Source of the DNA: Alternaria dauci
Lineage: Eukaryota > Ascomycota > Dothideomycetes > Pleosporales > Pleosporaceae
Assembly: GCF_042100115.1 (NCBI RefSeq)
Contig: NC_091273.1
Span: forward strand, 3,844,001-3,908,000
DNA length: 64,000 nt
Reading direction: 5' to 3'
Program-made: the position numbers and the translations under genes
The notes under the pieces: model-generated
Database searches by the model: none
What the model was told of the DNA's origin: nothing
The model's input: only the letters and a program-made list of their open reading frames with translations
Shown here: positions 20,310-55,317 of the stretch, one piece after another
How the letters are laid out: each line of letters begins with the position of its first letter
Position numbering within the stretch: position 1 is the stretch's first letter

Positions 20310-21382
20310 ATGATGTTTCCTTCAATTGCCATCTTTCACGTGCTTTGCGCAGCCGTCGCATCGGCGCAGCTCACCTCCCAACTCACCGAAATCGTCGACT
20401 TTGGCCCAAATCCGCGGAATGTTTCCATGTTCATTTACGTACCGGCAAATCTACCGCAAAACGCTCCCATACTCGTTTCGCCACATTGGTGTCACGGCAC
20501 GGCACAGCAGGTGAGTTACGACCGTTCTGCACACGTCTTCGACACATGCTGACTTGATCCTTCAACCTCAAGGTCTTTGACTACAGACCTTGGGCTTCTC
20601 TTGGTGACGAGTACGGCTTCATAACGATCTATCCCAACGCTTCAACATTAAATACGGACCAATGCTGGGATGTCAGTAGCCAGCAATCGCTTACCCACAA
20701 CGGCGGAGGCGATGCGCTCGGCATTGTATCCATGGTACGGTGGACTTTGGAAAAATATCATGCAGACAAAGACCGCGTTTTTGTCACCGGCACGAGGTTA
20801 GTTAGGCCGTACAAAATGCATCTGTGACATACGCTAACCTCGCATCTTCACGTCTGCAGTTCAGGCGCAATGATGACGAACGTGCTCATCGGGAGCTATC
20901 CAGACGTCTTTGCGGCAGGAAGCGCATGGGCGGGTGTGCCCTTCGGGTGCTTTTCCGGCGACGGCTTCGATGTCTGGAGTGAAGCATGTGCCACTGGCCG
21001 GATCATCAAGAACGGGCCCCAATGGGCAGCTCTCGTGCGCAACGCATACCCTTCATATCGCGGCTTCCGTCCTAAGTTCCAGACTCTTCATGGCACGGCG
21101 GACACGATCCTTGATCCACAAAACTTCCTCGAGCAGATCAAACAATGGACAAGTGTATTCGATGTGAGCCAGAAACCGACTGAAATCACGCAAGACGTTC
21201 CGTTCAAAGGCTGGACGAGGTTTCGGTATGGCGACAAGTTCGAAGCGTATGAAGCTGGCAGTGTAGATCACAACATTCCGACGGATGCCGACACCGTGAT
21301 GGATTTCTTCGACTTGAAGTGCAGCGGGCCGAGCTGCTTCTCGAGGCCTAGGTCAGGTAACAGTACTAGGCACCATGGTTAG
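20310..21382 (+). CDS. secreted CE1 esterase (acetylxylan/feruloyl esterase, PHB-depolymerase-like)
   Basis: Exons 20310-20510, 20573-20796 and 20860-21382 (introns of 62 and 63 nt) encode 315 aa. A signal peptide (about 1-20) is followed by LTEIVDFGPNPRNVSMFIYVP, the normal CE1 start. The nucleophile motif is G-T-S-S-G-A-M-M, rebuilt exactly across the second intron. LHGTADTILDPQNF and the final VDHNIPTDADTVMDFF supply the acid and His of the triad. These enzymes remove acetyl or feruloyl groups from xylan outside the cell. There is no CBM1. Both introns carry the shared block described in the findings. The MITE-like copy lies in the promoter. Confidence 0.92.
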
Positions 21383-22185
21383 GGCACTGTTGAATCTCGC
21401 TCCAGCCGCTCAGAATCTTACAAAATAGCAAGAAAAGTTATTGCAGTATGTTGAGTAGCTATGGATGGGAAGTGGTGGCTAAGTGAGGCGGCAGGGATTC
21501 AAGGATGGAGGTGGAGACAAGAAGGTATCGGAGGACTTTAGATGTCGAATCAAGCTAGGGAGGTAAGACGTGAAGGTGTATGGTACCACTTGGTGTTGAG
21601 CGTGCTGAAGGTCGCGTATATGTGTGGGTAGGGGACGATTCTTTGGGCGGCGAAGAAGGAGATAGATATCTCAAGGACGCGCGTGCATCCGCAATCGCTC
21701 CTTCACTTCCGTAGATTGGGCCAGCGGACCCACTTGACGTTGCTGACTGCCCAATACAAACGAGGACTTCACGGCTACCAATATCATCTACTCGTCAATC
21801 TCTCATACGGTGATTTGTGGGTCTAAACAAGTGAAAGACGCAGGTGCGCGAGATTGCCTAACCAAACAGCGACTCACGCGTTCTGCCCACGCTAAGCCCA
21901 TCAACCGCTCCGATAGCAACCCGACTTCTGACTAAGATCCTCTGCTGGAGCCTGGCAATTGTCCTAGTAGTTCGCATTCCACAATATTTCACAACACTGT
22001 TACCAACTTTAGCAGTCTTCTCAAGCGCACTTCAACTCTACCCTGTCCCCCAACGACATCCAGACGCGTAGCCAGGAAGCATCTCAACCCCAGGGCTGAT
22101 AGCTTTGGCCCACGGCGAATCTCCTTAATCATATCAACCTTTTTTCACGACATATCACCCTTCAATCGAAGGCTTTCCAATAGAC
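21383..22185. other. intergenic region, no supported gene
   Basis: About 800 bp without a frame worth calling. No repeat or RNA gene was recognised. Confidence 0.5.
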
Positions 22186-22743
22186 CTACGCTGGTTCACC
22201 GATGTACGTCCAACCTTCACGTGTCTTCCCTATGTGTCTTGATCCCATTATATCCCACCCCAACGTCTCTTGGTCACAGTCCATCCAGTAGTTCACTTCG
22301 TCCTCTGAAGTGCAAGTAACTAACGTGCTTAGATACCCACTCATCGTACCGAACACCATCTCGATATGCCGCACCTCCCACCCGGAACACCACACAACGT
22401 CTTGGCCATGATGACACCGGAGACATGGGCGAGTGCGATAGATGGCGCGACTCTCCACGGTCCACCCGATAACACGCAGGTTGGCATCATCAACACGAGC
22501 TTCCACTTCACCAGCGCATTTCGGAACCACGATTTCACAAAGGGCATATCTTGTCGAATCATCCGCAGTCAAAAAGATGCCAATGGCTTGTATCAGTCCC
22601 TGATCAATGCTCCTGGTACCACGGAGTATCGTGACCCTACCACTAATCAGTTGCACGAGAAATGGAAGAAGCCGTCTGGGAACTAGACCTGGGCCGGAAG
22701 CGTGCTCGGGAGAATTGTTCAACAGCTCATCAAGGCCATGCAT
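22186..22743 (-). CDS. hypothetical ORF, strand uncertain
   Basis: A 185-codon frame with no recognised family, no signal peptide and no splice support. The opposite strand at 22366-22686 carries a 106-codon frame (starting MPHLPPGTPHNVLAMM) with an equally protein-like composition, so at most one of the two is likely real. It may be a remnant or a lineage-specific gene. Confidence 0.25.
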   Translation of the reverse strand: MHGLDELLNNSPEHASGPGLVPRRLLPFLVQLISGRVTILRGTRSIDQGLIQAIGIFLTADDSTRYALCEIVVPKCAGEVEARVDDANLRVIGWTVESRAIYRTRPCLRCHHGQDVVWCSGWEVRHIEMVFGTMSGYLSTLVTCTSEDEVNYWMDCDQETLGWDIMGSRHIGKTREGWTYIGEPA

Positions 22744-22938
22744 ACGGACTCAGCAGACTTCATGAGCAGTGGGGGAAGTTTCTCTCATGCTCGCAGAGTC
22801 GTGGTTTATACAACCACGGTACCACGACGACAACCACTGTACTACGCTGTGGACTACGGTACAGCGGTGACTTAGATGAAGCAGACCTAGCAAAATAAAA
22901 CTAAAGCTATATAATTAACTGTTCTCTAAATCTTCAAC

Positions 22939-23196
22939 CTATTGATTGTCCTGATGTAGTAGGGTACCGATGCGCATTTCTCCGCTGTTGACCCGCTGCA
23001 TTAGAGTTGAGTATAAGATCTCCCATGGACCTTTGGAGGGCCTGTCTTCTGGAAGGGCGGTGCAGTTCGCCATGGCCCAAACATGGCCCAGAGGCACTCG
23101 ACCACTACCTACTTCGTGATTAGAAGCTAAAGCAATCGAAAGAGCTTGAGATGACCGGAGGCACAAATCCTTAGAACTCAATCGACCTTGCGCCAT
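22939..23196 (-). CDS. short hypothetical ORF
   Basis: An 85-codon frame from a true ATG. The composition is plausible (GHVWAMANCTALPEDRPSKG), but it has no domain. It could be the last exon of a spliced gene with upstream sequence to about 23450. No function can be given. Confidence 0.25.
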   Translation of the reverse strand: MAQGRLSSKDLCLRSSQALSIALASNHEVGSGRVPLGHVWAMANCTALPEDRPSKGPWEILYSTLMQRVNSGEMRIGTLLHQDNQ

Positions 23197-23596
23197 ACAT
23201 TACTGTGACTGTTAGTCGTAGTCCGACTTCTCAAACCAACCAGAGACGATGAATCAGGAGAGGTTGGTAAGCTCCAAGGAAGGCTCAAGTCAGGGATCGT
23301 GGGTGATGTCGTCACCATCCTCAGTATGAACGAAGATGTGAACTCGCCATCGATCTGCCGCACGCATCGGTAATCATTGAGTATGCGCATTAACACTAAT
23401 GCGTGGAAAGAATGCGAGACAAAGAAAGGTGGCTGGAAGATGAGATGCAAAAGCAGGTCATGTTCGGTGATAGCACGTACATAACCGGAAATACCGATAG
23501 CGACGGTCAGCCGACATGTTCACATCGCATTCGCAGCGCACAGACCCCCGCGTTTTCCTGCCGTCTCAACCCTATCATTCATTCGTCTCGCACGCC

Positions 23597-25213
23597 TCAC
23601 AGTTGGCCGTGCGACAACCCAGAGCTGGACTCGTTCTTTCCTACCAGTCTGATGGCCATAGTATCATGTCGCTCGACCACCGCCTCGTACCGCCCCTTGA
23701 AGTCTCCCTGCTCTTTTCCCGTCCACGAGTCAAAAACGGTATACACACCGTCAGCTTCCAGCTCCGGTACCTCCGCGAAATCAATGACCTTGGTCTGAGT
23801 CGTATTCAGTGTGTTCAACGCGAAAACATGTACTCCCTTCGAAGACAACCCACTCCAATACTCAGCCGGATGAGTCTGGTTCCAGGTGAAGTCCGCGTTG
23901 ACACCCCATTTGTAAGGTTTGGCCGCTGCACCAACAACTGGGTCTTGATTAAAGCTGATGAGCTCCGGGTTACTCAAAATCTCCAGGATTTCCGGCTCTA
24001 TACCATGAAGGGGAGTACCGATGATAAGCGGCGACTTGAGAGCAGCCCAAAGAGCGAAATGAGAGCGGCTTTCTTGGACGGTAAGGTTTCCATTGCCCAC
24101 TTCGAGCATATCCCAGTCGCCATGTCCCCAGAAGTCGGTATCGTTGTTGTAGAAGGATGCCTAAAGGTCGGTGCATGAGGTTAGTACCTGTCTCACGCGC
24201 TGTTCGTGCTAGGAGAATCACTGACATGATTGAGGATAGGCATGAGTCCCCAGGACCACTAAAAAGATAGCAGTATAATGTCAGCGTATGCCACGGATGA
24301 ATCGCATACGCCAAAGACTCACTTGGTGTTTGTCATACCACTCCGGGTAGATGTCACCCCACATCCTCCAGCTGTGGCCGGTACTGTTACCCCATTGCTC
24401 GATGTGGGCATGGCCCCAGGCACATTGCGAGTATTCAATAGTACGGTTCGTCGCAATGAGAGCGTCGCTCATAACCTTGTAACGCACGAAGCTCTTGGAT
24501 GTCGTCCAGTCGTAGCCTGTGGGCGCGGCAACAGGTCTAGCCTCCCCATCACCACCTGCGGTTTGATTCTCAGCTGGCGGGCCACCTAACCAGTTCTCTG
24601 GCCACCATCTGTACTCGTCGTCCCATTCATCGGGGACAGCACAATTGTCATACTTGAGATCTGCATCAAATTAGTGGATAACCGCTGATTATCATGAGAG
24701 GCGACCCACAGTCGATTCCCCAGTCGGCAAAAGTCTTCGCATCGACTTGCTCGTGTCCAAGAGAGCCAGCATACCCGCCACATGTTTTGTCTCCCGCATC
24801 ACCATAGATCCCAAGTTTCAGTCCAAGCTTGTGGATTTCGTCTGCTGTGTGTTTGATGCCGTATGGGAACTTGATGTAATCTGGACGAATTCTTCCTGTG
24901 ATATTATCGCGCTGGTATGCTTTGTCACTCCAGCTGCAGAAGTGAAGATACAAGGTCAGCGTATATCTCGCACGCAATTCTTCAAAACTTCTTACCAATC
25001 GTCAATGTTCACATAATTGTAACCAAGATCTTTCAATCCCAGGGAGATAAGGAGCGCACCAGTATCCAGAAAGACGGTTTCGTTAATTGCGCATTCATAC
25101 TCGTTCCAGCTACTCCAACCCATAGCGGGTAGACGGCCTGTCCCATCTCGCGACACTAGCGCGTAGCTGGAGCCGACGAGTGCCAGCCCAACGAACACTG
25201 AAGGTAGTACCAT
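23597..25213 (-). CDS. secreted alpha-galactosidase, GH27
   Basis: Five exons (25213-24996, 24933-24710, 24660-24323, 24258-24226, 24160-23597; introns of 62, 49, 64 and 65 nt) encode 458 aa. A signal peptide precedes LPAMGWSSWNEYECAINE, the standard GH27 start. The catalytic nucleophile is D152 in YLKYDNC, itself completed across intron 2. D250 in HSWRMWGDIYPEW is the likely acid/base. The C-terminal half has WDMLEVGN and the LKSPLIIG segment, then a beta-sandwich. GH27 removes terminal alpha-1,6-galactose from galactomannan and raffinose sugars. Exon 4 has only 11 codons. A TTATATAG lies about 60 bp upstream. Introns 1 and 3 carry the shared block, and intron 4 a degenerate form. Confidence 0.94.
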
Positions 25214-25776
25214 ATTTGATAGTAATAACAAGACAGTTTGTTCCCGTTTGAAATTACTGATGTAACGACCTATATAACACATGCCATGCTCCAAGGATTG
25301 TGAGGAAGGATTGCCATTCTTGAAACGGGGCTCGCCCCCGCAACCGCTTTAGGCAAGCACTATAGCGACGGGCGTGAATAATTGCAGGATCTACGACTAG
25401 CGGAAATTCCAATGTAGTTTCTCCGAAGACTCGAGAAGTCGTTGGATAAGCTTCAACAGCCAGTCAGTCGTTCGACGACATTACCTTCGTAGCCTCAACA
25501 ATCCAACCAATGGAGTCAGTCTGTCAGATAGAACCATGGATAAGCTGCCTGGTTCTTTCGGACAACTGTATAGGTGTTTTATTCTTTGTATCAAATAGTC
25601 CATCTCTCAATGCTCATCTAGAAAGCCTATGCAGAAAGGAACTAGAATGCTGGCAAGTGATGATCACCAGCGGGATCTTCGGATAGAAGCTCCCCTAGCG
25701 TGGATGACATCACGGCTAGCGTCCGCATCCTGCCATACATTCTGCAACTTGATACTGTCCAAGCCCACATCGTTGC
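25214..25776. other. intergenic, GH27 promoter and CobW 3' flank
   Basis: This 563-bp gap holds the alpha-galactosidase promoter on its left side. Nothing else is recognised. Confidence 0.5.
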
Positions 25777-27810
25777 TTAGTACTTGTGGCCATGGTGGTG
25801 AGCGTGATCATGCTCCTGTTCATCTTGCATGCAAGGCCATTCGGCCCAATAGGCATCGTCCCATATCTCCTGCAGAGTCTCTTCCTTCTCCTCATCGTCT
25901 AGTTTCTCGTCTTGCATAATCTTCTCCCATCTCTTCATTTCACTGCGAGTAAGCAGACATGCGTCCAGTCTCTTCGTCAGCCCATCGATATTGAGCTTCT
26001 CTCCAATGAACACAATCTCCTGTCGCCTGTCACCCCATTCGCCCTCAAAGTCATTCCTAATGGCCTTCAGTGTATCGTCGTCGGCGCCCCAGTCCTCTTC
26101 GGGTACACAACAGAACCATGGCATCTCAGATCCGAGTGTTAGCATTGCGCCTGCACTGCTCCATGAGCCCATCTGGTTGGGACGCGTTGCGAGCCAGAAT
26201 ATGCCCTTACTTCGGTGTAAGCCACCGAAGTAAGCACATGCCTTCTTGTTGGCCAGAATTTGCTCGTCATCCATCGGAGGCGCTGCATCGTCGTCGCTCA
26301 TCTTATCGGAATCATTTCCAGAGACGCTGGCTCTTCCGGATTCAGATGAACCGTCAACCATATTCTCAACACCCTCTTCTTCTTCTTCGTCGTCGTTGCC
26401 ATCTTCGTCGTCATCCAAGTCTTCAACCTCTTCTTGTAGAAGGATGAATTTGCCCTCGATGAGCCGGTATAGTTTCAGGGGATTAAATGGCTTGCGGGCG
26501 CGATACACGAAAGATCCGATGCCGTACCTGAATGCGAATCAGCCAAAGCACGACGTCGGATGGAGGGTGGCTTACTCTAGTGTTTCCGGCTTAGGCGCAA
26601 TACGCTTCTTGCCATGAACGTCCATGACTGTCATCTCGTGTAAAGACTGAAGCCACCCAACGCTTGCGACAGCCTCACCGAAGTTGAAAATCCCTGTGTT
26701 CTACAGACATGGAGATACCAAGTTAGTATATTTCCCACTTACATTGCATATGACCACAACTTACCAGCATCTCGCGGACGTCTACCTTGGAATACCTGGC
26801 TTCGATGATCTTGGCTTTGGGGTTGAGCGACTTAATGTAGGCTCTGACACGCCCTAGAGTTTCTACATCTGCCCTGTCGATCTTGTTGACAATGACAACA
26901 TTGGCAAACTCAATCTGGTCGGCGAAGAGATCGGAGATAGTCCGCTGATCTTCGTCTGGTACCTGCTCCCTTCCAAACCGGTCTTGTAGGAACTCGGCAG
27001 TATCGAACTCGGAAAAGAAGCGGAAGGCATCTACCACGGTCACCATGGTATCGACGGTCGCAATGGTTTTCAACCCGCCGAGCTTCGCACTGTGACGCAA
27101 GTTAGCGATAGCCTCGGAGCAACATCTGCTAGTGACTTACACTTTGGCAAACACTTCCTTCTCGTCAGGCTCCATTCCTTCGGCATCAATCATGGCCTCA
27201 GTGAGCTCTGTTGTGAAAGTCTCGGCGACCTGCTGCGGCTCACTTATGCCGGAGCTCTCAATGAGCACATGATCAAACCCTTGCTCATTCCAAGCAAGGC
27301 GTGCTAGTTCAACGAGTAAGTCGCTTCGCAATGTGCAGCAGATGCAACCATTCTCCATCTATAGTGGTGGAAATACGAAGTCAGCGTGTATCTTCAGTGA
27401 CTTCATTACGGTTGCAACTTACCTGGATCATCTTTTCTTTGACGCGGATTTCCCCGCTGTTGCTCTTGCTAATTCTACGGCTGATAAGATTCGCGTCGAC
27501 ATTCACGGAAGCCATATCTTAATGCGGATATGCGTGGTCAGCGTATGTCTCACATGCTCTTCGTACAGGGCCATTCATTACCATTGACGATAATGGCGAT
27601 TCTCAATTCATGGTCTGGTGATTGCAGGATGTGCTTCAGCAGGGTCGTCTTCCCACTTCCCTACAATTCTTAGCACATGGGTTTGCAGGTCTGACTGTCA
27701 CTTACCAGAAATCCAGACAAAACAGTCACTGGGAGTGGCTTTCGTTCACTCGATTTCGTCTTCATCTTCATCTCCGCACCGCCAGTCTTTCTACGCTTCG
27801 CAGGTGGCAT
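25777..27810 (-). CDS. CobW/COG0523 GTPase metallochaperone
   Basis: Seven exons (27810-27706, 27660-27582, 27517-27423, 27358-27141, 27089-26765, 26700-26576, 26527-25777) encode 565 aa. The Walker A motif GFLGSGKTT (33-41) is completed across intron 1. The metal-binding GCICC is at 97-101, and NKID at 234-237 is the guanine-specificity loop. The CobW C-terminal domain follows ([10 protein letters not shown], then [15 protein letters not shown]). An Asp/Glu-rich insert sits between the two halves of that domain. The protein ends [11 protein letters not shown], a likely metal-binding tail. Eukaryotic relatives such as ZNG1 deliver zinc; the metal here is inference. Introns 2, 3 and 5 carry the shared intron block or a degenerate form. 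Confidence 0.92.
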
Positions 27811-29756: not shown

Positions 29757-29967
29757 GATCAATCTGGAGGGCCTGTTTGCGTCTCGAATTCAAGGTGAGA
29801 GCAAAGGGTGGGATGCTAAGGCGTAGGGCGGCGCAAGCCTGATAAGGATAGCTAAAGTGGGGTAGGCGCCGGTGATGAACCGGATCTAAGACTTCGCATG
29901 CACGTCCATCAGATACCTACCCCGCGTCACTCGTGCCACACAATCTTCTCGCGTTACAGTCCCAGTC

Positions 29968-31713
29968 ATGCCTGATACTCAAAACACTATGCTGTTTACC
30001 AACGGCCGGTTCTTCAGTAGCGGTGCAGTGCAATCGGAAGCACGGTTTCACACAACGTTGGCCATTCAAAATGGCAAGGTCAGCTTTATTGGCGATTCTG
30101 ACGATCCAATCGTCCAATCATACCGAGATGCTGGTGCGAAAATGACCGATCTTGGTGGAAAGCATGTGCTTCCTGGATTCATCGATGCACACATGCAAGT
30201 GATCTCCCACTGTCTGTTTGTTGGGAAAGCGCTGACTTCGCACACCAAATATCAGGCACTTTTTGATGCTTGGTCAGTCGCTACACAAAGTTGATTTAGA
30301 TCACGCGAAGGATCTGGACGAGATTCGATCGCGTATTCTAAACTACGCAAAAGCAAACCCGGACAAACCGCGCATAATGTGTAAAGGCTGGATGCATTCC
30401 ATGACTAACGGGGAGGCCAAGGCGAGCATGCTGGACGATCTTGACGTTGGCGGAAGACCCATATACATAGATTCCAAGGACATTCATTCGTGCTGGTGTA
30501 ACAGCGCAGCTTTAAGAGAGATGGGTGTTCAGGATATGGAGGCGCCGGCCGGCGGAACAATCGAAAGGGACGCAGACGGCAATGCTTCGGGTCTTTTGAG
30601 CGAAGCTTGCGTGCTTTTAATCGTCTGGCCATATCTGGCAAAGGTCACGCCATTAGACGAGAAAATGGCAGCTTTGAGAACTGCAATCAAAGCATACCAT
30701 GCGGTTGGCTGTACCGGCTGCATTGACATGGCGATGGATGAGAATGCCTGGGACGCTATTCTTGCTTTACGATCCGCCGAAGGACTGCCACTGCGAGTCG
30801 CTGCTCACTGGTGCATCATGCCAGGCGATGGAGAGGAGCATCGATTGCGGCAGGTTGAGCGTGCTATCAAGCTGAGTCAAGAGTTCAATAACAACACGAG
30901 CCCGGATTTGAGAATCGTTGGTATCAAGGTCATCTGTGATGGAGGTAAATTACGACAAGATACATATGATAGACACATGCTGACTTTGTATCAGTTATCG
31001 ATGCCTGCACTGCTGCATTAGCGGAACCTTATACGTCCAATGGTCATTTCGAGGGTCCTATCTGGACGCCTGAAATGCTCGATCCCGTGGTCAAAAAAGC
31101 CATCGATGGCGGATTGCAATGCGCATTGCATGCAATCGGCGATCAAGCCGTTCACAATGCAGTCAATGTCCTCGAAAAGTATGGCAATCGTGGTCAAAGG
31201 CACCGTATCGAACATCTCGAACTCACCGCGCCGGAAGATGCAAAGCGACTTGGTCAGCTGGGCATTACAGCGAGCATACAGCCGGTACACTCCGATCCTG
31301 CCATTCTTCGTGCTTGGCCAAAACTCCTTGGCCCCGAACGAGTGAAGCGGGCATTCGCATACTCTGACTTCGCAGACCATGGCGCACCACTCGCTATTGG
31401 CTCAGATACACCTACAGCACCCTACGCACCTTTGCCAAATTTGTACGTTGCAACCACCCGTAGATCAGCGAGACAACCGCAGGCTGGTGACGAGCCTGTC
31501 AATGAGAACTTCAAGCTTGAGTTGACCCAGGCAGTAGCTGCTGTAACAGAGGGCGCAGCTTATTCTTCTTTCGCCGAAGGTCGTGTAGGTAGTCTGGAAG
31601 TTGGAAAGATGGCGGACTTCTGCGTGGTGGACATGGAGTGGAAAGGGGAAGAGTTACTCAAGGCCAAGGTATTGGAAACGTGGTTCGAAGGAAATCAGGT
31701 GTATAGTGCGTAG
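29968..31713 (+). CDS. amidohydrolase family 3 (metal-dependent hydrolase)
   Basis: Exons 29968-30194, 30256-30944 and 30995-31713 encode 544 aa. Intron 1 (30195-30255, 61 nt) is a GC-AG intron with donor GCAAGT. Only this donor keeps the frame and rebuilds PGFIDAHMHFLMLGQSLHKVDL, with metal ligands H75 and H77. A GT donor one codon later breaks the frame unless a far acceptor removes the second His. Intron 2 is an ordinary 50-nt GTAAAT...CAG. Later motifs include ALHAIGDQAVHNAV, HRIEHLEL, IGSDTPTAPYAPL and the C-terminal VGKMADFCVVD. The family hydrolyses amides or other C-N bonds; the substrate is unknown. Confidence 0.9.
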
Positions 31714-34263: not shown

Positions 34264-36458
34264 ATGGTGCTTTTCAGGGGAATTGCAGCTGCAGCCTGCG
34301 CTACTTCTGCGCTTGCTGCCGACATCATCGTCCAATTGTCAGGTGTGTCTCTGTATGAACTGAATGTGAGACGTATACTAACCCGGCATAAGGTGGAAAC
34401 TTGACTGGTAAATTCGGACACTCTTACGGCTACGGTTTCCTCCACGAGGTATTTCATCCTAGTCGATGACTACATGTCGTATGCTCACTATTGCTCAGGA
34501 TATCAACAACTCCGGCGATGGCGGAATCTACGCCGAGCTGATCCAAAACCGTGCTTTCCAGTACAGCCAAAACTTTAGTGTTTCAACCGACCACTATTTC
34601 TCTATCAATGGTGCTGCGCTCAGCATTGAGATGTTGGATGAGCCACTTTCCGAGCAACTGCCGGCATCTATGCGTGTATCTGCAGGCAATGGCACTTCCA
34701 ACTCCAGCAAGATTGGTTTCAAGAACGAGGGTTACTGGGGTATGGACGTTCGTGTGCAGACCTACACCGGATCTTTCTGGGTCAAGGGCGCATACAATGG
34801 CGTTTTCACCGCATCGCTCGAATCAAACTTGACAAGCGATGTATTTGGATCCGTTGAGATTCCCTCCAAGTCCGTTGCGGATGACTGGACCGAGCATACC
34901 TTCGAGCTCGTCCCCGAGAAGGATGCGCCCAACTCGAACAACACCTTTTCCATCACCTTTGACAGTGCCGCAGCCAGCGCACTCGACTTCAACCTCATCT
35001 CCCTCTTCCCGCCCACTTACAAGAACCGCAAGAACGGTCTCCGTATCGACATTGCTGAGGCTCTTGCGGACATGAACCCTACCTTCCTCCGCTTCCCTGG
35101 CGGCAACATGCTTGAGGGTCTCCGAAACGACTCGTACTGGGACTGGAAGGATTCTCTTGGTCCTCTGAGGTATCGCCCTGGTTTCCAGGGTGTATGGGGA
35201 TACCAGCAGACTCACGGTCTCGGTCTCATGGAGTACCTTGAGTGGGCGGAGGACATGGGTCTCGAGATCGTGCTCGGTGTCTGGGCTGGGTAAGTTCTGG
35301 TTCTACGCAATGCATATGAGACATGTACTGACTTGGTTTCTTCACTTCTGCAGCCTTGCTCTAGATGGTGGTGTTACACCCCAGCAGGATCTCCAACCCT
35401 TCATCGACGATGCTCTCAACGAGATTGAGTTTGTTCGCGGTCCAGTCAACTCCACTTGGGGTGCTCGCCGTGCTGAACTTGGACATCCCGAGCCTTTTGA
35501 GCTGAACTATGTCGAAATCAGTAACGAGGACTGGCTTGCTGGTTATCCCGGTGGCTGGGAATCTTACCGAGCATACCGCTTCCCGCTCTTCTACAATGCC
35601 ATCAGCAAAGCCTACCCTGACATCCAGGTCATTTCTTCAGCCGCTTCTAGCGATCCCGCTGGCGAGGCGCCTATCTTCGGCCCCAACAACGTCAATGGCC
35701 AGGTGTTGCCTCTTGACGCAATTGGTGACTACCACCCATACCGCGAGCCAGACGAGCTTGTTTACGAGTTCTCCCGCTTCGACAATGACGCTGGACATAT
35801 TGTTGGCGAAGTTGCAGCTACCCACGTCAATGGTGGTATCCGCTGGGAAGGCGACCTGTACCCCTTTCCATGGTGGCAAGGTGCCGTCGGCGAGGCCGTA
35901 TCTCTGATCGGTTACGAGCGCAACTCTGACCGCATCCCTGGTACTTTTTATGCCCCGGTTCTAAAAAACAATAACAGATACCAGTGGCCAATCACACTCA
36001 TCCAGTTTGATGCTGACCCGAAGCGCACCACCAAAGCCGTTACCTGGTACTGCTGGAGTCTCTTCGCCCACCACCCCATCTCGCACACACTCCCCACGCA
36101 CTCCAACTCTTCCTACGGACCGCTCTACTGGGGTGCTGGATACGACGAGAAGCGTGGTGGTGCCATGGTGTGGAAGGGTGCAGTGTACAACACCACCAAC
36201 CACGTGGACGTGCCTGTAAGCGTCCAGTTCCAAGGTGTTGCTCCAGGAGCTTTGGCCAACCTCACCTACCTCACCAACTCTGTCGGCGACCCATACATGT
36301 ACAATGACCCGTTCACTGGAGTCAACATCGTCAACACTACCAACATAATTCTCACTGCTGGAAGTGATGGCGCATTCCGCTTCACTCTGCCCGAACTCAG
36401 TGTCGCAGTGTTGGACACCGAGATTTCTGGTGGAAACAGCACTCAGAGACGGTTATAG
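34264..36458 (+). CDS. secreted alpha-L-arabinofuranosidase, GH51
   Basis: Four exons (34264-34342, 34393-34448, 34499-35289, 35354-36458; introns of 50, 50 and 64 nt) encode 676 aa. The signal peptide (about 1-19) is followed by IIVQLSGGNLTGKFGHSYGYGFLHEDINNSGDGGIYAEL, the typical fungal AbfA start. The acid/base is E367 in YVEISNED, and E461 in HIVGEVAAT fits the nucleophile. LRFPGGNMLEG is the conserved barrel motif. The C-terminus is the usual beta domain. GH51 enzymes release arabinose side chains from arabinan and arabinoxylan. Many sequons fit secretion. Intron 3 carries the shared block in the form GAGACATGTACTGACTTGG. Confidence 0.95.
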
Positions 36459-36850: not shown

Positions 36851-39800
36851 TCAACCATCGTAGACTCCGCCGATGGGCATGTACCCTGGCGGTCCTAAAT
36901 AGCTGTCCTTGACCCCGCCCCTGGTATCCAAAACAAGCTTCTCCAAGTAAACCTCAGGACTATTAACACTCCAACGGAGCGTATGAGTCCCTTCCGTTGT
37001 CGCGCCGAGACTGACTTTCTTTGTCCATACCTGGTTCATTACGTTGTTCGTCCATTCCGGTGGCACATCGCCTGCATCTTTCGGATCGCCTAGCACACGT
37101 GTGAAGTTTTGAGGAGCGTCATCAAGAGAGAGCGAGAATTCCATGAGAAGGTTGGGGTCTGTGTCTAAACCAGCGTTGATGTAGATGGTGGCGTTGAGGG
37201 CAGAGGTGTCTTTGAAGAGGTAGATATCGTATTCAACATATGCAGATTTCGAGCCGATAAGAGAAGCCCGAGCAGCGTGGAAAGGCCGCAGAGCGATGGA
37301 GCCGGACTCAGTACGCGTTCCAAGGTATGGGACGTGGGCAAATGCTACAGCATCCCTCGTAGTTTCGTTGTTTAGCGAGGAGGAAGAGCGCTGGAAGTGC
37401 GGGCTTTCAATCGATATGTAACCGGCTGTTTCCGGGAAACCGCGGAAATTGGTGGGTACTTTCTTATTTTGTACCGGAATACGTATGATATCGTAATACG
37501 GATAAAATGACGGTGTTGATGTCAAGCCAACCTTTACCGTATCGTTGTATCCCTCCGGTACCCGTGTCCAGTCAATGGCGACGTTGAGGCGTTGCTCGTC
37601 GGCTGTATAGTTAAGTCGACCCGAGCTAGGAGTGATTGACAGCCAATCCACTGGGATATCACCAAGTTGCCAGTCGAGTGGGACGCGGTAGTCGCCTCGC
37701 ATGAACAGATCTATAGTTCGCCTGGATGGTCCATAGGGACTCATTTCTGGGAGCTGGGCTGGGGATTTGGTGAAAGGCATCGATGGATCGATGGACTCAG
37801 CCCACCGACCCTGGTCGAGTGGACTGTTAGAGCCCTCTGCATAGATGCCGAGGTTGCCAACGGAGAACTGCATGTTCTGGCGCAGTTGAACAAAGGAAAG
37901 GTTTGAGATTATGTCGCGAGAGGGATTCATCCAGTTCTTTGGCTTTCCGATATCGAATGTTTCAAGCTTGGCCTGAGACATGATGTTTTTCCATTTGCCG
38001 TCGAGGAGGGCATCGAAACCTTCAACCAGATCGTAGTCATATTCGAAGTCTGTAAGAACCTGGTGGGCAAGTGCGTTCGCCGAGTTCCTCCGTTCCATGG
38101 CATGTCGGTAGTTGAGTCCCGTACTGTAAAAGCGGAGGAGGTATGTGGTCAGTGTGTATCTTCCAGGCATCTCTTAGAGCCACAACTTACCCGATGTTTA
38201 CTGCGTAGTATGTAGCGCCCGATACTATAGGATAGAAAACGAGCTCATAATACGTGGCTTTGTACGTCTCCGGGATGCGGTCAAATAATGTTTTGGTTTG
38301 ATCAGCGAGCATGTTCCATCTTGCTAGAATCCTTTCCGCTTCATGGTAATTCAATACCGAGTACGTGTCTGGCTGGACCATCTCAAAGCGGCGCATCCCG
38401 ATGAGGTGGTTAAATTCCATCAGTAGAGCTGCGACATCCGCATATTCGGTTCCGAACTCCCGCTCAGAGTAGAGGCGCAGATATTCTGGTATCATGTCGA
38501 AGTCAAACTTCGAGATATCCCAAGCTAAGTCCATGGCGAAGCCAAAGGGTTGCTCCAGGGGCTTGATATCGCCTACGTTGAAGACCCAGACCTCGCTTGC
38601 CTCGCGCCAGTAAGCTTGCAAAAGTTCCTTCAAAACTTTCGGCTACGCTTGTCAGCTATTGACGCCCTTCGTGAGAAGTGGTTACTAACCAAGCTGTTGG
38701 TGTTTGACCACTTGTACGATCGTGGCCTACCAAAATACTCGAAGTGGAAGTAAACACCAGCACCACCTTCTCTAGCAGTCTCATTACCAGTGGGCAGCCG
38801 CAAAATCTGGCCATGGTTGTCGTCGGGCATGATGATGGTAACCTGAACACGGGTATATAGAAGTCAGCATATATCTCACGTGCAGTCTGTATGGAGAGAT
38901 TACGTACGTCATCAGGCGGACTTAGTCCAGCAGCATAGTAGGTCGCGACTTCCTTGTAAATTGTCCATGCCTCTACATCTCATTAGCATGCCTCCCACCT
39001 GATTTGTCAACTGTGTTACTTACGGTTCACTTTCTGGTCACCCAGAACTTCTTTGAAGATCTGGCGCTCGACTTCAAACACTTCTCGGAGGATCTCTAGA
39101 GCATCGTCTCCCACAATGGCGCTATCACTAGGACCACGCATGCCCAGAGTCACATAGCTCTCGTTGTTTCCCATTCTGCGAATGCCCTCTTCCATGAAGC
39201 GTGTGACGTTGTCTTTGTTCAATCTCCAATCCCATGGCCCAGTTAGAGTCGCGTTCCACTCATTTGTTGCTCTTTGCATCGGCTCATGATGGCTCGTGGA
39301 GACTACGATGCTGTAGTTATCTGCAAGCTGCTGGTTTCCTGGGTCATCGGTGAAGAAGATGTTGCCCGGGGCTGGCGTTGATGATCCCCACATGGCAGGC
39401 CACAAATAATTGGCTTTCAGTCGAAGAAGTAGATCGAAAACATGCGAGTAAAACTCGGTGTCTAGGGGACGGTAGGAGGAGTTGTGCTGCGCGGCCCACC
39501 AAGTGACAAGCGCTGGAGCTTCATCATTAATGAAAAGCCCTCTGTATTTGACTGACGGTGGGCCATGGACAGTGGCTTTTGGTAAAGCAAAAATGGCGGT
39601 GTGTTTCTTCGTGGGTACATCTGCCCACCAATGGTATCTGATTCAGATCATTAACAGACGTCTACATGCACAAGACGTACACACTTACGGAGATTGCCCA
39701 CTCTGTTCTGCGAGTGTGTGTATTCCGAAGATAGTTCCGCGTTTATCGCTACCCACAATGACCAACGCCCGTTCTACTCCAGCTATCGGATTGGCGATAA

Positions 39801-40173: not shown

Positions 40174-42342
40174 TGCTGGAGAACAAAAACTGGGCGTAGG
40201 TACCTAGCTGAGCTACGAAGGCGCTTGACCTGAAGATTATAACATTACCTTCGGTGTAATGAAAGATGGGCGGGGAAGTACCCCGGACTGGAAATGCTCC
40301 CTGCGGAGAGGACGCACAACCGCGTACGGTTTTCCTGCTTCCCCATGAGAAACTCGCCAACTATTGGCCTCGCGGCGGATGGTCCTGATCATCCTTGAAC
40401 TGCATGCTAGGGGAGCTGGAGCGATCATCTGGGGTCGCTAAGCCCAGAGTGGAACTCAGCCTGTCGGTCGAAAGTACATCTGCAAGCTCGGGTCAAAGTC
40501 ATCCGCGTCCAGTACGTACTGCAGAGAGCGGAGATCGCGGACGCCGCATCTGAGCACGCCATACAAGGAAAAAACCGACCGCCACCTCTGTAGTTGTCTA
40601 GGTAGAGTATTGCTACACAAGAGAGATTGATTGCTCTTCCTGTAGTTGCTTTAGTAGAGTGTTATAATGTAAGAGGTATTAAAAATGCTACTCCTGTAGT
40701 TGTTTAGGTAGGGCATCGCTACACAAGAAGGATTAATTACTCTTCCTGTAGCTGCCTAAGTAGGGTGTTCAATTTTTCTCTTGTATAGCGTGGGAGCATA
40801 ACTTTGTCCTAACGTGGATTGCGAAGCTGTGGCCGTACGGCACCGCGTATTTAGCGTGTCTTCCCCGCATCACGCTCGATGGCAGCTACGGAGTAACCTC
40901 GGATGCTAGCAGTATTCTGACTGAGCTTCGCGTGTACTGGATTGATACTTGCCTTGATTAAATGACATTCATGGACAATTTTCCATTACATATCCAGCGT
41001 TGTTCAGTGCAACTGGGCCGAGATCGCGTGTGTGGATGATGACGTCACGTATCTTAGCGCTGATTCCCTTACTGACGCGCTTTCCCACAAGCAAACTCCT
41101 GTCTCGACAACAGTGTCTTCAGCATATCACTGAGCATGTCTTTATAATGTCTCCATTTTATTTTTTGTTTTTCCCTCGTTTGATCTTCACTGCGATTTGT
41201 TTGCTGCATCGTTACAAATCGTTCCCCAAAGCTCAAACCCAATGACTATCGTGACACAGTAGGCCTCCCAGGAGACCAAAAAAAGCGACTTTACACTCTC
41301 GTACTCGTACATGTGTCCTCAACCTCCGTTTTCACTTGGGGCTTCTGAGATGCACAGCGTATATACTATCCTCACCTTTGATCCACAGCGTCACGAAGCA
41401 ATACCATAGTACACCCATCCCACCCATGGTACAGCAATGACCCATAAACGATGAGCGACTCACAATTACTGAACCACTATTGCCACCATAGCCACCATAG
41501 CCAAAGACCATATATGATTCATATATGTGTCCAGGACCACAATTCTCTCACCTGGGGCTTCTTGCCCACGCGGCGTTTCTTGTTGCATTGCGCCGCCTTC
41601 TTCACCGCGAGAGCTTTACGGCGTTGCGCAGGCGCGCGTACGAGTTCTACAACTAATTTGATGAGTTAGTTGTCTAATACAGGTTATTAAGATAAGCTCT
41701 CTGGTTGCCCTTGCCCTGACCTGACACGCTGGACATCGACTTCTTGTGTGCACGAGGCACCGGCGAAGAAACACGACTGTAAACCATAAGTCCACGAGAG
41801 TATAGAATTCGCTTTCTTAGTCTCAGTAGAGGCCTGATCATGCTTAGAGAACGCGTGTCAGCCTCTTACCTTGCCGCAAATTTCATACGAACTCCATGAG
41901 ATACGCTGTGGTGGATCATTGTCCCGTTCCTCGGCTTGTTCGTGTTCACGCCCAACCTGTTTCTGCTCTGGTGGAGCTGGTCCCTTGAACCTGATATGAA
42001 TTCTACCCAGTATCAAGGAGGAGCAGCTAGTTTTCCTGATTCGTAGAACGCGTATTCACTAGCCAAGGGGATTTCAGCACGCATCTTCAATGCCTTCAAC
42101 GACTTATATTACACTGGGTATTTCTTTCCTCATAGTAAGGCTCCCTTTTGGTCTCTCAATGTCTAGTTACGTCGACTGAAAAGCAAGATAACGCAAATGT
42201 CGATCAAAAACACACCCTATCAGCGGTGAACGCAGACATACAACGAAAACCGACATCCAGCAAGCTTCCCACCACCATGTCCGCCTGGCCCAGCCAGAGT
42301 ATGGGCATCCATTGGCATCGACTCTTCCGATGACCCAAGGAT
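40174..42342. other. intergenic, GH115 promoter and PiT 3' flank
   Basis: This 2.2-kb gap holds the second MITE-like element at 40555-40792. The stretch 40800-42340 has many stops on both strands and no supported gene. Confidence 0.55.
40555..40792 (+). mobile_element. MITE-like element, copy 2 (238 bp)
   Basis: The terminal inverted repeats begin CACGCCATACAAGGAAAAAA (left) and CACGCTATACAAGAGAAAAA (reverse complement of the right end). Inside are two tandem units of about 75 bp, each reading CTGTAGTTG-TYTAGGTAG ... GCTACACAAGARRGATTRAT. They are separated by an AT-rich spacer (TATAATGTAAGAGGTATTAA). Copy 1 has a single such unit and runs in the opposite orientation. It is non-coding, and no clear target-site duplication is seen. 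Confidence 0.85.
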
Positions 42343-48608: not shown

Positions 48609-49016
48609 GCCAAGGCCATGATTTGAGCGGGCGAAATGGCGTCTAGCGTTTGTGGTGTTTGCATACGTGCTGTGGGTGCTTTCAGGACAGGATGCACGCT
48701 GGAAGTGCTTCACAACTGGGTGCATAGGGTGTTGACAACGCAGGCCTGTATTACTCTTGACAATGCCATCAAACGTTTTCTCTCTCACGCGCCATGTGAG
48801 GTCCGATAAAGTCACTGTTGATTCTGCGGTGTGATCTTGCCGACAGTAGTGGGTAGACGGCTTGAATTGTCGGACAGCGGAGTTGATCCGATCCGCTCCG
48901 AGCTCGGCGTCGCTCGGGGCAAGAGGTCGGCTGATGGCTCGATCTGATAACCCAGGGATCTTCATCTGATAACACTCGTCCACCTCATTCGTACCGCACG
49001 CCTGCAGCAAGTCAAC
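48609..49016. other. intergenic, mcm5 3' flank and hapX-like promoter
   Basis: This 408-bp gap contains the GATA sites described separately. No gene is seen. Confidence 0.6.
48942..48972 (+). promoter_or_regulatory. two SreA-type GATA sites (ATCTGATAA) before hapX-like gene
   Basis: Exact ATCTGATAA copies lie at 48942-48950 and 48964-48972, spaced 22 bp start to start and 45-75 bp before the ATG at 49017. ATCWGATAA is the established motif of iron-sensing GATA repressors (SreA/Sre1), which repress hapX when iron is plentiful. The sites are seen directly; function is inferred from the known SreA-HapX loop. Confidence 0.7.
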
Positions 49017-50734: not shown

Positions 50735-51717
50735 CACTCTGCTCGCTTCAGTGTTTGATTTGCCATACTTCTTTCCTTTAGCACTTCTGTCCATCATTTG
50801 CGGTGTTGGCATGCACTGTAACTCGTATGCCGTCTCGCATCATATCTCATGTGCATGGAGACATGAGCAAACTCCCGGGTCCTAACGCTCTTCACGATGC
50901 CAGGACGGGGATGATACCCTTTTCCTTTTAAAAATATTTTCTACTAGTTCTGTAGAATTTTGAGATGGCTACTGCAGCCAACGACTAGATTAATGACGAA
51001 TTAAGACAACAGGCCCAACGCACTCGGCGTTGATGGTCGCATGATACTCTACACTCGACACTTGTTCTTGCTTGTGATTATCACTCTATTGCCTCTTGCT
51101 CTCAATTCTTGAGCAACAGGCCGAACAACCGTCCGTGCTCCGTTTTGCGGCTTGGCTAATCAGGTTACGACACTGGCAATCGTACCACTAAGGAACTTGC
51201 ACTTGCACCTTCCGAGTTCAGACCGTCAATCTGACTCGACACCAGCCACTCAAAACGACTTTGTCTACACGTACACTATAAAGTTTTCACCGCCGATATA
51301 GGCTGGAGATGGTTCGGGACTGGCGTCGGGCTGTGAGTGGTGGCATTGGATGCCGGCCCGCATCTTATCTGATGATCTGATAAAATTTTGCTGCGCTAGT
51401 CCTGGAAGAAGCAAAGCGGGCTGCGTGCGGGGAGAGCTTTCACCCGCGCTTTTGTTCGCCCTGAGAAATACAATGAGAATAACGTGGCACCATGCCAGCA
51501 ACTCAAGGGGTCAAGAACAAGTGAGCATTTCATCATTGTCAAATTCTGATAAGCGTTCTCAAGATTCACGATCTTCTCAACTTCCCTTCTGTACTACACT
51601 CCGCTGCGCTGGGCGATCGTCTCGCCTTGCTGATATTCAGCATTGGACTGTCCGTATTCCTGTGCATATGCTGTCATCACGCATCTACTTTCTTCTTTCT
51701 CTCCTTCAACACTGCCG
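50735..51717. other. intergenic region with second GATA pair
   Basis: About 980 bp beyond the hapX-like stop. AT-rich around 50930-50960. No supported gene. It holds the paired GATA sites at 51365-51383. Confidence 0.5.
51365..51383. promoter_or_regulatory. paired SreA-type GATA sites in opposite orientation
   Basis: TTATCTGAT at 51365-51373 (ATCAGATAA on the minus strand) is followed one base later by ATCTGATAA at 51375-51383. Both fit ATCWGATAA. No iron-related gene with a nearby start is recognised on either side. Confidence 0.45.
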
Positions 51718-52029
51718 CTACTTCTTCGCTCCATTAACAACAACCTCGTTTCCTTGCCCAACCCATTGGCCGTTCGGCCCAGCCCGTACAGCAACCTGCA
51801 GTACCATGTTATTTCACATTCCAGGCACACTCATCGTTCAAGCAAGGGAGTCGCGTACCTGTATGTCAACACCCCATCGCTGTGCATTTGCAAGTGCAAC
51901 ATTGGCCGCTTCTTGCTCGAGAGTCGTCGCGGCCTGTGCTAGCTTGCCGCCTATTGTGCATAGTTCTCCGCCTAGTTTGTTGAGGTCGGCGGCGAGCTTG
52001 AGGAGGTTGTCGGGGGTGTTCTGAGACAT
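51718..52029 (-). CDS. small hypothetical protein
   Basis: Exons 52029-51859 and 51795-51718 with a 63-nt intron (GTACGC...CAG) give 82 aa. It starts MSQNTPDNLLKLAADLNKLG, then an Ala/Gly/Glu-rich helical part, and ends VVVNGAKK. The helix shows a heptad-like pattern of Leu and Ala. Without splicing the frame ends six codons into the intron. No family is recognised. It looks like a compact, conserved-style small protein rather than a chance frame, but this needs transcript support. Confidence 0.55.
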
Positions 52030-52548
52030 TCTTAGGAATCTAGGTGAGAGCTTCGTGAAGTTGTGAATATGACTACTAATCGACTCGAGTTTGAGCTATC
52101 AACGTGCTGATTATAGACTCTGATCGAGGATGAATATGTCAAGGCTGGTCGACAGTCGAGAATTAGAAAATCAAGAACACCCACATGTAGTGGGTCGGTC
52201 TGGGGATATATGTAGCAGCGGTGATATAGAGTGCTGGGTGTGTTTGCCCAACTAGTTTGCGGCGCCTGTCAATGACCGAGCATTCCATGTTGGCGCGAAC
52301 AGTGCCGAGACAACGATGCTGGAATTCATAGACGGGTAAATCTACCAGTGTCGTATTCCAGCGTTTCAATAGATGGATCGTTGTCCAGTCTTCACATGCA
52401 GTCTTCGCTACGTACGTGTTACTGTCAGTACAATTTTTACGGGTAGTATATGAGCTTTCGATTTAATCCAAATCTTTGGTAAGACATCGAAGATCCCGAC
52501 TCTTATCTTCTCCAGATCTTGCCCTTGAACAATTCTCACGCATACACA
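52030..52548. other. intergenic between divergent small genes
   Basis: About 520 bp between the starts of two small divergent genes. No motif was recognised. Confidence 0.5.
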
Positions 52549-52900
52549 ATGTCGTCTTCCTCGACCAGACACCCACTCGCACCCACCGCCGCACAGCACG
52601 ATGCAAATTACCGATATAGCAAGCAGCTCACAGATTTGCTCAACGACATTGTCGAACTCAACAAGCCTATTGATGAGACAGCTGCGGAACACAAAAGTCA
52701 GCCGATTCCGCCATGTCTGTTGCTACTGCTGACGCATACTAGGCGCAATCTCGGTACAAGCCCGAGCGATGACATGTCTCAATATGAAGATGATGTGGAT
52801 TGCGTACAAACTTGATCCAATCATCAAGGTGGACGCTATCACAGCGGAAAGGATGAGCAGGATGTTTCCTGAGATTGCAGGCTACTTCCTACTTGATTGA
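52549..52900 (+). CDS. small hypothetical protein
   Basis: Exons 52549-52696 and 52743-52900 with a 46-nt intron (GTCAGC...TAG, branch site GCTGAC) give 101 aa. The product begins MSSSSTRHPLAPTAAQHD, has a helical LTDLLNDIVELNKPIDETAAEHK, and ends with an amphipathic segment finishing MFPEIAGYFLLD. The spliced frame stays open and ends cleanly, whereas the unspliced frame turns into low-quality sequence. The family is not recognised. Confidence 0.5.
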
Positions 52901-53009
52901 GGTATGGAAGGTAGTTGAGAGCACATTTTGTGGATACTAAGACTTGACATGTATGATGAAGATAAACTCCAAGTGGATAGGATGGTGCTGTATCTTCATA
53001 ACATAACTA

Positions 53010-53657
53010 TCAACCAAGTCTAGGATCGTTTTTGAATAAAGCAAGCCGCGCAAGTCGCCTTCGCTCTGGTGCACTAACTGGGATAACATTCTCCTCTTTA
53101 GCTTCTTCCAATTGCTGCGAGTTCTCTGTTGCTTGATTCGTGTCTTTGCCAGCCATCTCTATGTTTGCTTGTACTCTTCTCTGTACGTCGCGCATGTACA
53201 ATCCCTCTTTGATATCTTCATCCTGGTCTCTGACAGCCATCTCGCGCATTTCTTCATCGAGTCTCATGTTGGTCTCTCGTGTAATTTCCGCTTTTCGTTC
53301 TAGAAGTGCAGCTTCACGTCGGTCCAGCGCTTCGCGGGTCGATTTGCATTTCGCCAATTCTGTTTCTATGATGCGGAATTCCTCGTCCAGGGTAAGAGAC
53401 AGTGGAGCTAGCATAGCAGCTACTTGAGGGGGACTGCTGGGTACATTGAGTGTCGGAGGTGGAGAGACACCATCTTCCGGTGATCCTTGAGGCATGTTAA
53501 GAACAGGGAGTGGGCCATTCGGGTTTTCTTCCTGTCGAAGCGCCGTGTTTCGCTTCTTGGGCAAAGGTTCCAGAACGCCGTCCTTTGCATGTTGCTCGCC
53601 TTCGGTTAAAGCGGGTGACATGATGGAGTGAACGAGGTATGCGAACGAGATGGTCAT
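53010..53657 (-). CDS. hypothetical coiled-coil protein
   Basis: This intronless frame encodes 215 aa. Residues 1-80 are Pro/Ser/Asn-rich and disordered. Residues 85-150 form a charged coiled coil (LDEEFRIIETELAKCKSTREALDRREAALLERKAEI). The C-terminus is basic (PERRRLARLALFKNDPRLG). No signal peptide and no family are recognised. M13 (53621, MSPALTEGEQ) may be the true start, because the first 12 residues are unlike the rest. The gene lies between a small gene and the PhyH gene with short spacers. Confidence 0.65.
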   Translation of the reverse strand: MTISFAYLVHSIMSPALTEGEQHAKDGVLEPLPKKRNTALRQEENPNGPLPVLNMPQGSPEDGVSPPPTLNVPSSPPQVAAMLAPLSLTLDEEFRIIETELAKCKSTREALDRREAALLERKAEITRETNMRLDEEMREMAVRDQDEDIKEGLYMRDVQRRVQANIEMAGKDTNQATENSQQLEEAKEENVIPVSAPERRRLARLALFKNDPRLG

Positions 53658-53911
53658 GAGTTCTGGTTTATAACGCTGGCTGTAGGATTGATGATCTCGA
53701 ACGCTTGAACAATCCGAGGAGTCGGTTTGTGTTTGCCTTGACTGTTGGTGACTGTCAATACATCGATTTCCGAGGTCATCAATTCGCTGTCACAATTCGT
53801 CATTATAGTATGTTTGCTCAAACTGGAATTCGTGTACATTGATTTATATCACAATCCGAAGGCCGTGGCGTCTTCATGTGAATCGCGTGGGGACCGTCGC
53901 AAATACGGCAT

Positions 53912-55317
53912 CTAAGCCATAGACTCTTTTCGCATCGTCGTCAGTGCATCCAACACAATCTGTCTTGTGCTGTTCATCTCTAGATGTTTGAGCAAGACAT
54001 CCTGCTCGCTATCGGGTGCCATGCCGGCAGTTTCAGGCACCCTTCTATCAAGATTGGTCGGGAAAGGGTCTGAATGTAAGTGCACCAAGTCAGTATATGT
54101 CTCGAACGCAGTCGTATGGGGAGATTACTCACATCCTTCTGCAACAACGCTCACGAGGGCTTTGAGCTCGTCGCTTAGCCCTTTCTTCCCATGCATCGCG
54201 GACATCGCGTCCCACGTCTTTTCGACGAGTGCATGTGTATCAACTGACTCCATTGGTTTGCCAAAGGCTGACCTATATGTACACGCATGAAATCAGTGCA
54301 TGTATCATATGTGATTCGTACAAGGAGATCTCTTACGATATTTGTAGCAAGTTGGCAGATCGCTGAACGTCGGCCGAGTCATTCTGTCCCGCAGCATGAA
54401 ATAAAGCTGGATTGAAGAACAACCCGTCGCCCATTTCTAGTGACATAGACACGTACTTCTCCAAGAAGTATTCTGCGAACTCTGGAAGGCGATACGCCAT
54501 GTACCCCTCCTCGAACTTCTGGCTGAACGGCAAAAGCCTTGTCGGCCCACTCTCTACAGGCATAGCAGAGTGTGCGACTGCTCCCTGAAGCGTAAGAAAC
54601 TGCGATGCAACCTGCATTGCTTTGGGAAACCTCTCGCACGATTGGTTGTCTTGAAACCCAATATGGTAGTCCCTGTGAGAGATTTGAGCCTTTGCGCCCG
54701 GCTTCACGATGTTGACTTGTGAAGTGAGGCGATGGTGTGGGCCCAGCCATGCTTCAGAAATGAGCGGCAACCATGGGTTCGAGTAATACTTTGCGAATGA
54801 TTCCGGATCTTGCAAGCAATGCTTCGAGAGTGAGTTCCAGATACGGTCATTTGCTCCGGCTCCGGCAAAGTGGTCACCGCGTTTGCCAACCACTTTCTTT
54901 TCTTCCGCGATGATGTTTGCGTATACGCTGTTTACTTGCTCAAGAAGAGACGTGTTTTTGTAAAGACCCTTGGTGACGAACACTCCTGGCCCTGAAAGCA
55001 GGATGTGATACCACCTGTAGTGCGGGGCATACAATCAGTCCATGTCTCGAATTCAACTCACAAGTAAAAGGTACGTACTCATCCTGAAGCGCAGAGCGCT
55101 CCTCTGGACTGAGCGAGTGGTAGTCGGGAAGATCGTAAATAGGTACATTCAACTCGACACCTTTTGCAAGCGGATAATAACAAGACACAGACTCCGTTGT
55201 GAGCTTCTTGAAGTCGTCCAACGATGGTGGGTTCTTGACGGAGAACAGCCGAGGTCCGATTGGCGGATGGTCATGACTTCTTTGACCGTTGGACTGTTTA
55301 TCATTCGTGGAGTGCAT
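53912..55317 (-). CDS. phytanoyl-CoA dioxygenase (PhyH) family protein
   Basis: Four exons (55317-55079, 55014-54337, 54272-54133, 54069-53912; introns of 64, 64 and 63 nt) encode 404 aa. The Fe(II) site is H193-R-D195 (QISHRDYH) with the distal H286 in FFNPALFHAAGQN, and R239 is a candidate 2-oxoglutarate ligand. PhyH-type fungal enzymes oxidise small molecules, often in secondary metabolism or lipid turnover; the substrate is unknown. There is no peroxisomal SKL-type end (the C-terminus is KESMA) and no signal peptide. All three introns carry the shared branch-region block and are of almost equal length. Confidence 0.9.

Follow-up and report, generated by a model that had tools for sequence, protein, structure and literature searches.

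Introner-like introns with similarity over their full length form a family in the genome of Alternaria dauci

The multiplication of introners is a known, still unexplained route by which new introns originate, and introner-like elements (ILEs) were reportedly described by van der Burgt in 2012 from Fulvia, Dothistroma, Zymoseptoria and other Dothideomycetes. Here we analyse a window of 64,000 nt from Alternaria dauci (contig NC_091273.1, positions 3,844,001 to 3,908,000; window coordinates below count from its first letter), in which introns of unrelated genes have a branch-region block in common, together with related introns elsewhere in the genome. Introns of approximately 61-65 nt form a family with similarity over the full length, between both splice sites, and the block is the segment best preserved among them. 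The family is introner-like, of a kind already published for the genus, and very probably it is a real family of degenerate ILEs.

Introners have been published for Alternaria alternata as family 1 (Gozashti et al. 2022, PMC9860276). According to the available parts of that paper, an example of family 1 (LPVP01000001.1:1639687-1639750) spans 64 positions, like our subtype A (defined below), and the family is without target-site duplications (TSDs) or terminal inverted repeats (TIRs) and is said to replicate by direct insertion; no TSD is found here either. The likeness rests on length and the missing TSD, not on sequence homology. Unlike A. alternata, the present genome probably lies outside section Alternata; identity to the cluster representative of A. 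tenuissima is 82% for one exon of a gene called peroxidase-like after its relatives, and identity to a cluster representative of A. rosae is 90% for Cyk3. An intron polymorphism in histone H3 of A. alternata (PMC7179870, available excerpt) was set aside as an introner case, as the introns measure 52-54 nt. In the accessible literature searched, with subscription papers outside its scope, no other report of introners in Alternaria or the Pleosporales was found beyond PMC9860276.

The Dothideomycete ILEs, as far as described in the available text of Collemare 2015 (PMC4457414), are like the present family in several respects: similar introns stand in unrelated genes and decay toward ordinary introns, two elements can lie close together in one gene, and elements are found inserted at most 15 bp from sites where relatives have ordinary introns. 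Identities of 98-99% occur within some published families, which are considered active, whereas our best pair from different genes reaches 97%. A stable structure is ascribed to Dothideomycete ILEs (quoted in the accessible part of PMC8469720) but single copies of the present family do not show one. The symmetrical stwintrons and cropped sister introns of Hypoxylaceae described in the same source share with our introns a seamless insertion in sense orientation without target duplication, and a terminal symmetry that decays may be a further common trait. However, these stwintrons carry inverted repeats of 45-55 nt, against an imperfect foldback of at most about 17 nt in a consensus here. Also unlike stwintrons, the copies of approximately 61-65 nt have one donor, one branch site and one acceptor each (no search for twin introns was made).

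Genes in the window were predicted with a purpose-written program, which uses coding scores from 59 long open reading frames and hand-set generic scores for splice sites, CTRAC and length, and yields 22 genes with 45 introns. With at most three mismatches the block GAGACATAYRCTGACYT matches the window 14 times against 0.88 expected, a number reached in none of 100 shuffles. All 14 matches are on the sense strand within predicted introns, and by direct count 14 of the 45 introns carry the block. This agrees with the initial annotation, which had placed a common block in introns of CE1, GH27, CobW, amidohydrolase, GH51, GH115 and PhyH genes; the four introns it quoted are indeed GT...AG introns, correct to the nucleotide. 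Pfam searches with the predicted proteins recover esterase, GH27, CobW, amidohydrolase, GH51, GH115 and PhyH among the genes bearing such introns and SRP54, Rrp15 and MCM5 among the others, where Cyk3 is recognised by homology.

Although the block is real, the unit shared is larger than the annotation had it. Where the block is matched exactly elsewhere in the genome, the introns resemble one another along their full length: a second conserved stretch, TGTACGAA.TGCATRT, lies ahead of the block, and either GTA...CTTCACATCTGCAG or GTACAC.CACATCTTAG follows it. Two consensus introns aligned to the genome give at least 40 matches each, many of them full-length (1-64/64, 1-65/65) and others partial; among the matches listed, the best has 94% identity and the ends fall on splice sites. 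From 90 loci we obtained 79 unique seed introns, the lengths of which cluster at 61, 64 and 65 nt.

A profile was built from 76 introns elsewhere in the genome and none from the window; L015, which lacks a GT where one is expected, was excluded, as were L027 and L056, both copies from the window. The profile is not perfectly independent, because window introns had contributed in part to the patterns and consensuses by which the seed loci were identified. Applied to 268 predicted introns of the window and the loci, the profile gives two-peaked scores, with 107 introns at 6 or above, 161 below and a single one between 3 and 8 (the threshold was chosen after the histogram had been seen). Decoys that keep the splice and branch sites have their 99.5% point at 6.0 and their maximum at 12.2. 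In the window, 16 of the 45 introns score as family (at least 6.6) and the other 29 reach at most 1.3; 13 of the 16 lie beyond every decoy and three are marginal. Family introns are restricted to seven of the 17 intron-bearing window genes (permutation p = 0.012, a test made once the pattern was known). Outside the seed set, 23 of 155 introns of the loci pass the threshold.

Similarity between the introns themselves points the same way. Among 115 family introns the identity to the nearest neighbour has a median of 80% (middle half 73-85%, top 97%), whereas 124 ordinary introns reach at most 55% in pairwise comparison. The top pair joins an intron of a mitochondrial-carrier gene and one of a purine-permease gene with unrelated flanks, and some other pairs in unrelated genes also fall within 91-97%; the second-listed top pair (L047) is a single intron called with two boundaries. 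By eye, sets of family introns have derived changes in common. Similarity is slightly lower for pairs within one locus (0.536) than for pairs between loci (0.580), which counts against tandem copying within a gene.

Insertion appears to be oriented and precise. Relative to predicted genes, 70 of the 79 seeds are in sense, none is antisense and nine have no predicted gene; 63 seeds are predicted with exactly the same boundaries. A gene for a class II fructose-bisphosphate aldolase (L002, C1:808511-811527) holds five family introns of 49, 54, 55, 57 and 64 nt. Once they are removed, the encoded protein can be aligned with a solved aldolase (7rgn), and none of the five sites coincides with a gap; the two gaps of the alignment coincide with, or adjoin, two predicted introns of ordinary type (residues 11 and 62). 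In a GH35 beta-galactosidase gene (L004, C1:1846406-1846543; also L005) two introners flank an exon of only 10 nt, TGCCGCTCCC, and after joining, the protein agrees with its paralogues in the conserved region GGTNWG...TSYDY. Removing family introns restores reading frames and protein families. A separate observation concerns locus L015, where a family copy at 1474-1542 lies outside predicted genes and has CTAAGT in place of GTAAGT at the 5' splice site; this copy is possibly dead or non-coding.

For the target sites, 104 family introns (score at least 15) were compared with 124 ordinary introns (score below 3, length at most 75), omitting intermediates. TSDs of 4-5 nt number zero or one per test among these 104, as in shuffles, and a duplication of 1 nt is indistinguishable from the splice consensus. 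Subtype A (63-65 nt, ending in GCAG or GTAG) is preceded by an exonic G in 24 of 25 cases; subtype B (63-66 nt, other ends) is followed by one in 28 of 39 and preceded by one in 23 of 39; subtype C (60-62 nt, other ends) has neither preference (G at -1 in 4/19, at +1 in 5/19). The remaining 21 of the 104 fall outside subtypes A-C. In ordinary introns the corresponding numbers are 56/124 and 44/124. Phases 0, 1 and 2 are found 29, 37 and 29 times in the family (nine without phase) and 54, 32 and 26 times in ordinary introns (12 without phase).

The subtype consensuses fold back on themselves with a common arm, TGTACGAA/TTCGTACA, at uncorrected p values of 0.0025 for B, 0.0115 for C and 0.20 for A (0.003, 0.035 and 0.16 with an alternative control). 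Single family copies, however, show no folding advantage over ordinary introns (mean z 0.10 against 0.22). The stems are without covariation and their paired columns are no more conserved, RNAalifold predicts 0 consensus pairs for the first 28 family introns, and the hairpin is not stronger in copies nearer the consensus (correlations -0.04, -0.06 and -0.18). A TIR consistent across the three subtypes was not found. Given the lack of covariation and of strengthening toward the consensus, and the mixed significance, a hairpin is not claimed; the weak foldback seen in subtypes B and C may go back to an ancestor that was symmetrical.

These observations are very probably explained as follows. One ancestral intron of about 64 nt, with both splice sites and the GAGACATAYRCTGAC branch region, was copied many times, and the copies were inserted seamlessly, on the sense strand, into exons of unrelated genes, to decay afterwards. 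Copying may have proceeded through RNA: a spliced intron would be reverse-spliced into a transcript or a transcription-exposed strand and then be fixed in DNA. We infer this route from the seamless, sense-only insertion without duplication, in agreement with the RNA-based route that the available parts of PMC9860276 and PMC8469720 consider for introners of fungi. If reverse splicing applies, it might further be argued, though we consider it doubtful, that the subtypes follow different target rules, the ends of each subtype setting the exon base that the spliceosome accepts.

The simplest rival is that the block is an extended branch-site consensus of the species, preferred by its spliceosome. 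The block does end in the branch site, and its window matches without exception fall in introns. Yet fewer than a third of the window introns carry it (14/45), and the similarity extends to both intron ends. In 120 ordinary introns with a recognisable branch site (score below 3), positions -12 to -2 hold at most 0.05 bits each, against 0.47-1.70 bits in 38 non-seed family introns. The block (at most three mismatches) occurs in 14 of the 16 family introns of the window, in none of the other 29 and in none of the 161 introns below the profile threshold; these counts by class are partly circular, since the profile contains the block, and the two-peaked scores lessen this without removing it. The annotation had named a block equally common in all introns as the outcome favouring a mere consensus, which is not what is seen. 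Two-peaked scores, flat ordinary branch regions and the similarity between introns support the degenerate introner-like family that it had suggested, and leave the consensus explanation extremely improbable.

A non-autonomous DNA transposon resembling a miniature inverted-repeat transposable element (MITE), carrying splice signals and moved by a transposase, would account for the consensus foldback with its common arm (p = 0.0025, 0.0115 and 0.20 for B, C and A) and for the local clustering of copies (eight gene-merged neighbours within 10 kb, see below). It is nevertheless rather improbable: TSDs of 4-5 nt and antisense copies (0/79) are missing, the stems do not covary (0 pairs over 28 introns), single copies fold like ordinary introns, and ascomycete introners are reported, in the available text of PMC9860276, without TSDs or TIRs. 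We also judge it unlikely that these are old introns of ancient entry, inherited by many relatives, with little recent gain. Such an age would suit the middling identity of most copies to their nearest relative (73-85% for the middle half) and the shortening of some to 49-57 nt. On the other hand, pairs in unrelated genes reach 91-97%, and paralogues lack the introns. In a tblastn comparison of an amine oxidase gene (three family sites) and a GH35 gene (four family sites) with three paralogues each from the same genome, the paralogous exon is uninterrupted at the family site in 20 of 21 comparisons, which are not independent, as two of the GH35 sites lie only 10 nt apart.

Several points weigh against a family of recently copied introners. 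The empty sites are consistent with intron gain but no proof of it: they were judged on paralogues, not orthologues, and the ordinary introns of both paralogue sets are mostly unshared as well. Paralogue L091 has, by eye, an ordinary-looking intron (score -1.6) about 1 nt from the amine oxidase site at residue 174, and paralogue L096 has a stop-bearing insertion about nine residues upstream of the GH35 site 338. Current activity is not demonstrated by a best different-gene pair of 97%. Splicing of the family introns is predicted from the restored reading frames. Finally, DNA transposition is, in the conclusion of the accessible text of PMC9860276, how most introners move, ascomycetes being the exception.

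Genome-wide, the block with at most two mismatches is found 367 times in 34.9 Mb, against 32 times for the reversed pattern, and two stricter patterns match 87 and 21 times (108 together) with no control match. Of 39 non-seed family introns, seven match the strict patterns and 18 the two-mismatch pattern; extrapolation on this basis gives a widely uncertain copy number of about 602 (351-1404) or about 726 (544-1089). Strict matches cluster, with nine neighbours within 3 kb where one is expected, and after merging by gene eight within 10 kb against 1.9. Gene-merged matches per Mb (raw counts) amount to 4-5 on contigs C1 and C2 and approximately 1 on C5 and C8. Enrichment at contig ends was considered and the opposite observed, as just five of 99 gene-merged matches lie in the terminal 10% per end against about 20 if uniform (raw); nor is there enrichment near P450 genes (1/92 P450 loci near a strict match, 1.18 expected). 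The window is rich in the family, with four of the 108 strict matches, but it was selected because of the family.

Twenty host genes were chosen and one exon of each was scanned. A Pfam family above the cut-off was found for 14, all enzymes or transporters, among them the aldolase gene and a hexokinase-family gene. Seeding in accessory genes, as proposed in the initial annotation, fits the window but is not general, given five family introns in the aldolase gene and one in the hexokinase-family gene: accessory genes appear to be common hosts, not the rule. The family introns of the window mostly measure 62-69 nt (14/16; the other two are 50 nt), close to what had been claimed, but against the full set of remaining predicted introns in the window the difference lacks significance (p = 0.13), in part because some long predicted introns are doubtful. 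The range of 46-56 nt given for housekeeping introns holds for SRP54 (50 nt), for the last gene, labelled GluRS (56 nt), and for one Cyk3 intron (51 nt), but not for the other (103 nt). No intron is predicted in MCM5, though its 5' part may be absent from the gene model, and Yah1 was not identified among the window genes scanned, the last gene lying outside the scan.

The individual family introns of the window are as follows, the label 'subtype A-like' or 'subtype B-like' being given by eye. The CE1-type esterase gene on the plus strand (Pfam Esterase_PHB on the spliced protein) holds a marginal one at 20511-20572 (62 nt, score 10.0) and a subtype A-like one at 20797-20859 (63 nt, 36.3), which interrupts the GTSSGAM stretch. 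On the minus strand, the GH27 gene has one at 24161-24225 (65 nt, 27.8), a possible, marginal one at 24259-24322 (64 nt, 6.6) and a subtype A-like one at 24934-24995 (62 nt, 33.2) interrupting YVNIDD/CW. The CobW-domain gene, also on the minus strand, has three of 64 nt: 26701-26764 (27.9) and 27359-27422 (20.1), both subtype A-like, and 27518-27581 (42.2), subtype B-like. Shortened copies of 50 nt lie on the plus strand in the amidohydrolase gene (30945-30994, 20.0) and the GH51 gene (34343-34392, 32.2). The latter gene also holds the subtype A intron 35290-35353 (64 nt, 44.3), which is 84% identical to the subtype A consensus over 64/64 nt and 77% alike to the GH27 intron 24934-24995 across 44 nt. 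The remaining copies are all on the minus strand. Those of the GH115 gene are 38124-38190 (67 nt, 21.8, subtype A-like) and 38843-38907 (65 nt, 31.9, subtype B-like). In the PhyH gene, 54070-54132 (63 nt, 36.1) matches the block exactly, 54268-54336 (37.7) is 69 nt as predicted, although a TATAG 5 nt earlier may be its true end, and 55015-55078 (64 nt, 11.9) is marginal.

The window also contains other repeats. At 20034-20165 and 40759-40793 lies a repeat of about 132 bp that resembles a MITE and has CACGCTATACAAGGGAAAAATC as inverted ends; with at most two mismatches its end matches the genome 75 times (reversed control 0), about ten facing pairs approximately 130 bp across being among the matches, and the repeat looks unrelated to the introners. 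Adjoining such an end, at 40581-40769, are two direct repeats of 83 nt (82% alike) with starts 106 nt apart. A tandem pair of 54-nt repeats lies at 56708-56815, and a repeat with 45-nt spacing within the Cyk3 gene at 59114-59409. Cyk3 itself stands directly upstream of the gene labelled GluRS (58231-64000); several public relatives are annotated with a single Cyk3 plus glutamyl-tRNA synthetase protein, which may be a gene-model fusion.

The origin of spliceosomal introns is a long-standing question, and few families have been caught in the act. Alternaria is a well-sequenced genus, and a small, abundant, subtyped family in it means that presence and absence could be scored directly at many sites. 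Repeated insertion in single genes, as in the GH35 gene (L004/L005) and the aldolase gene (L002), is relevant to the question why certain genes become targets. If the tentative relation between subtype ends and exon bases were true, the exon-recognition step in the birth of introns would be preserved in a fungal introner family.

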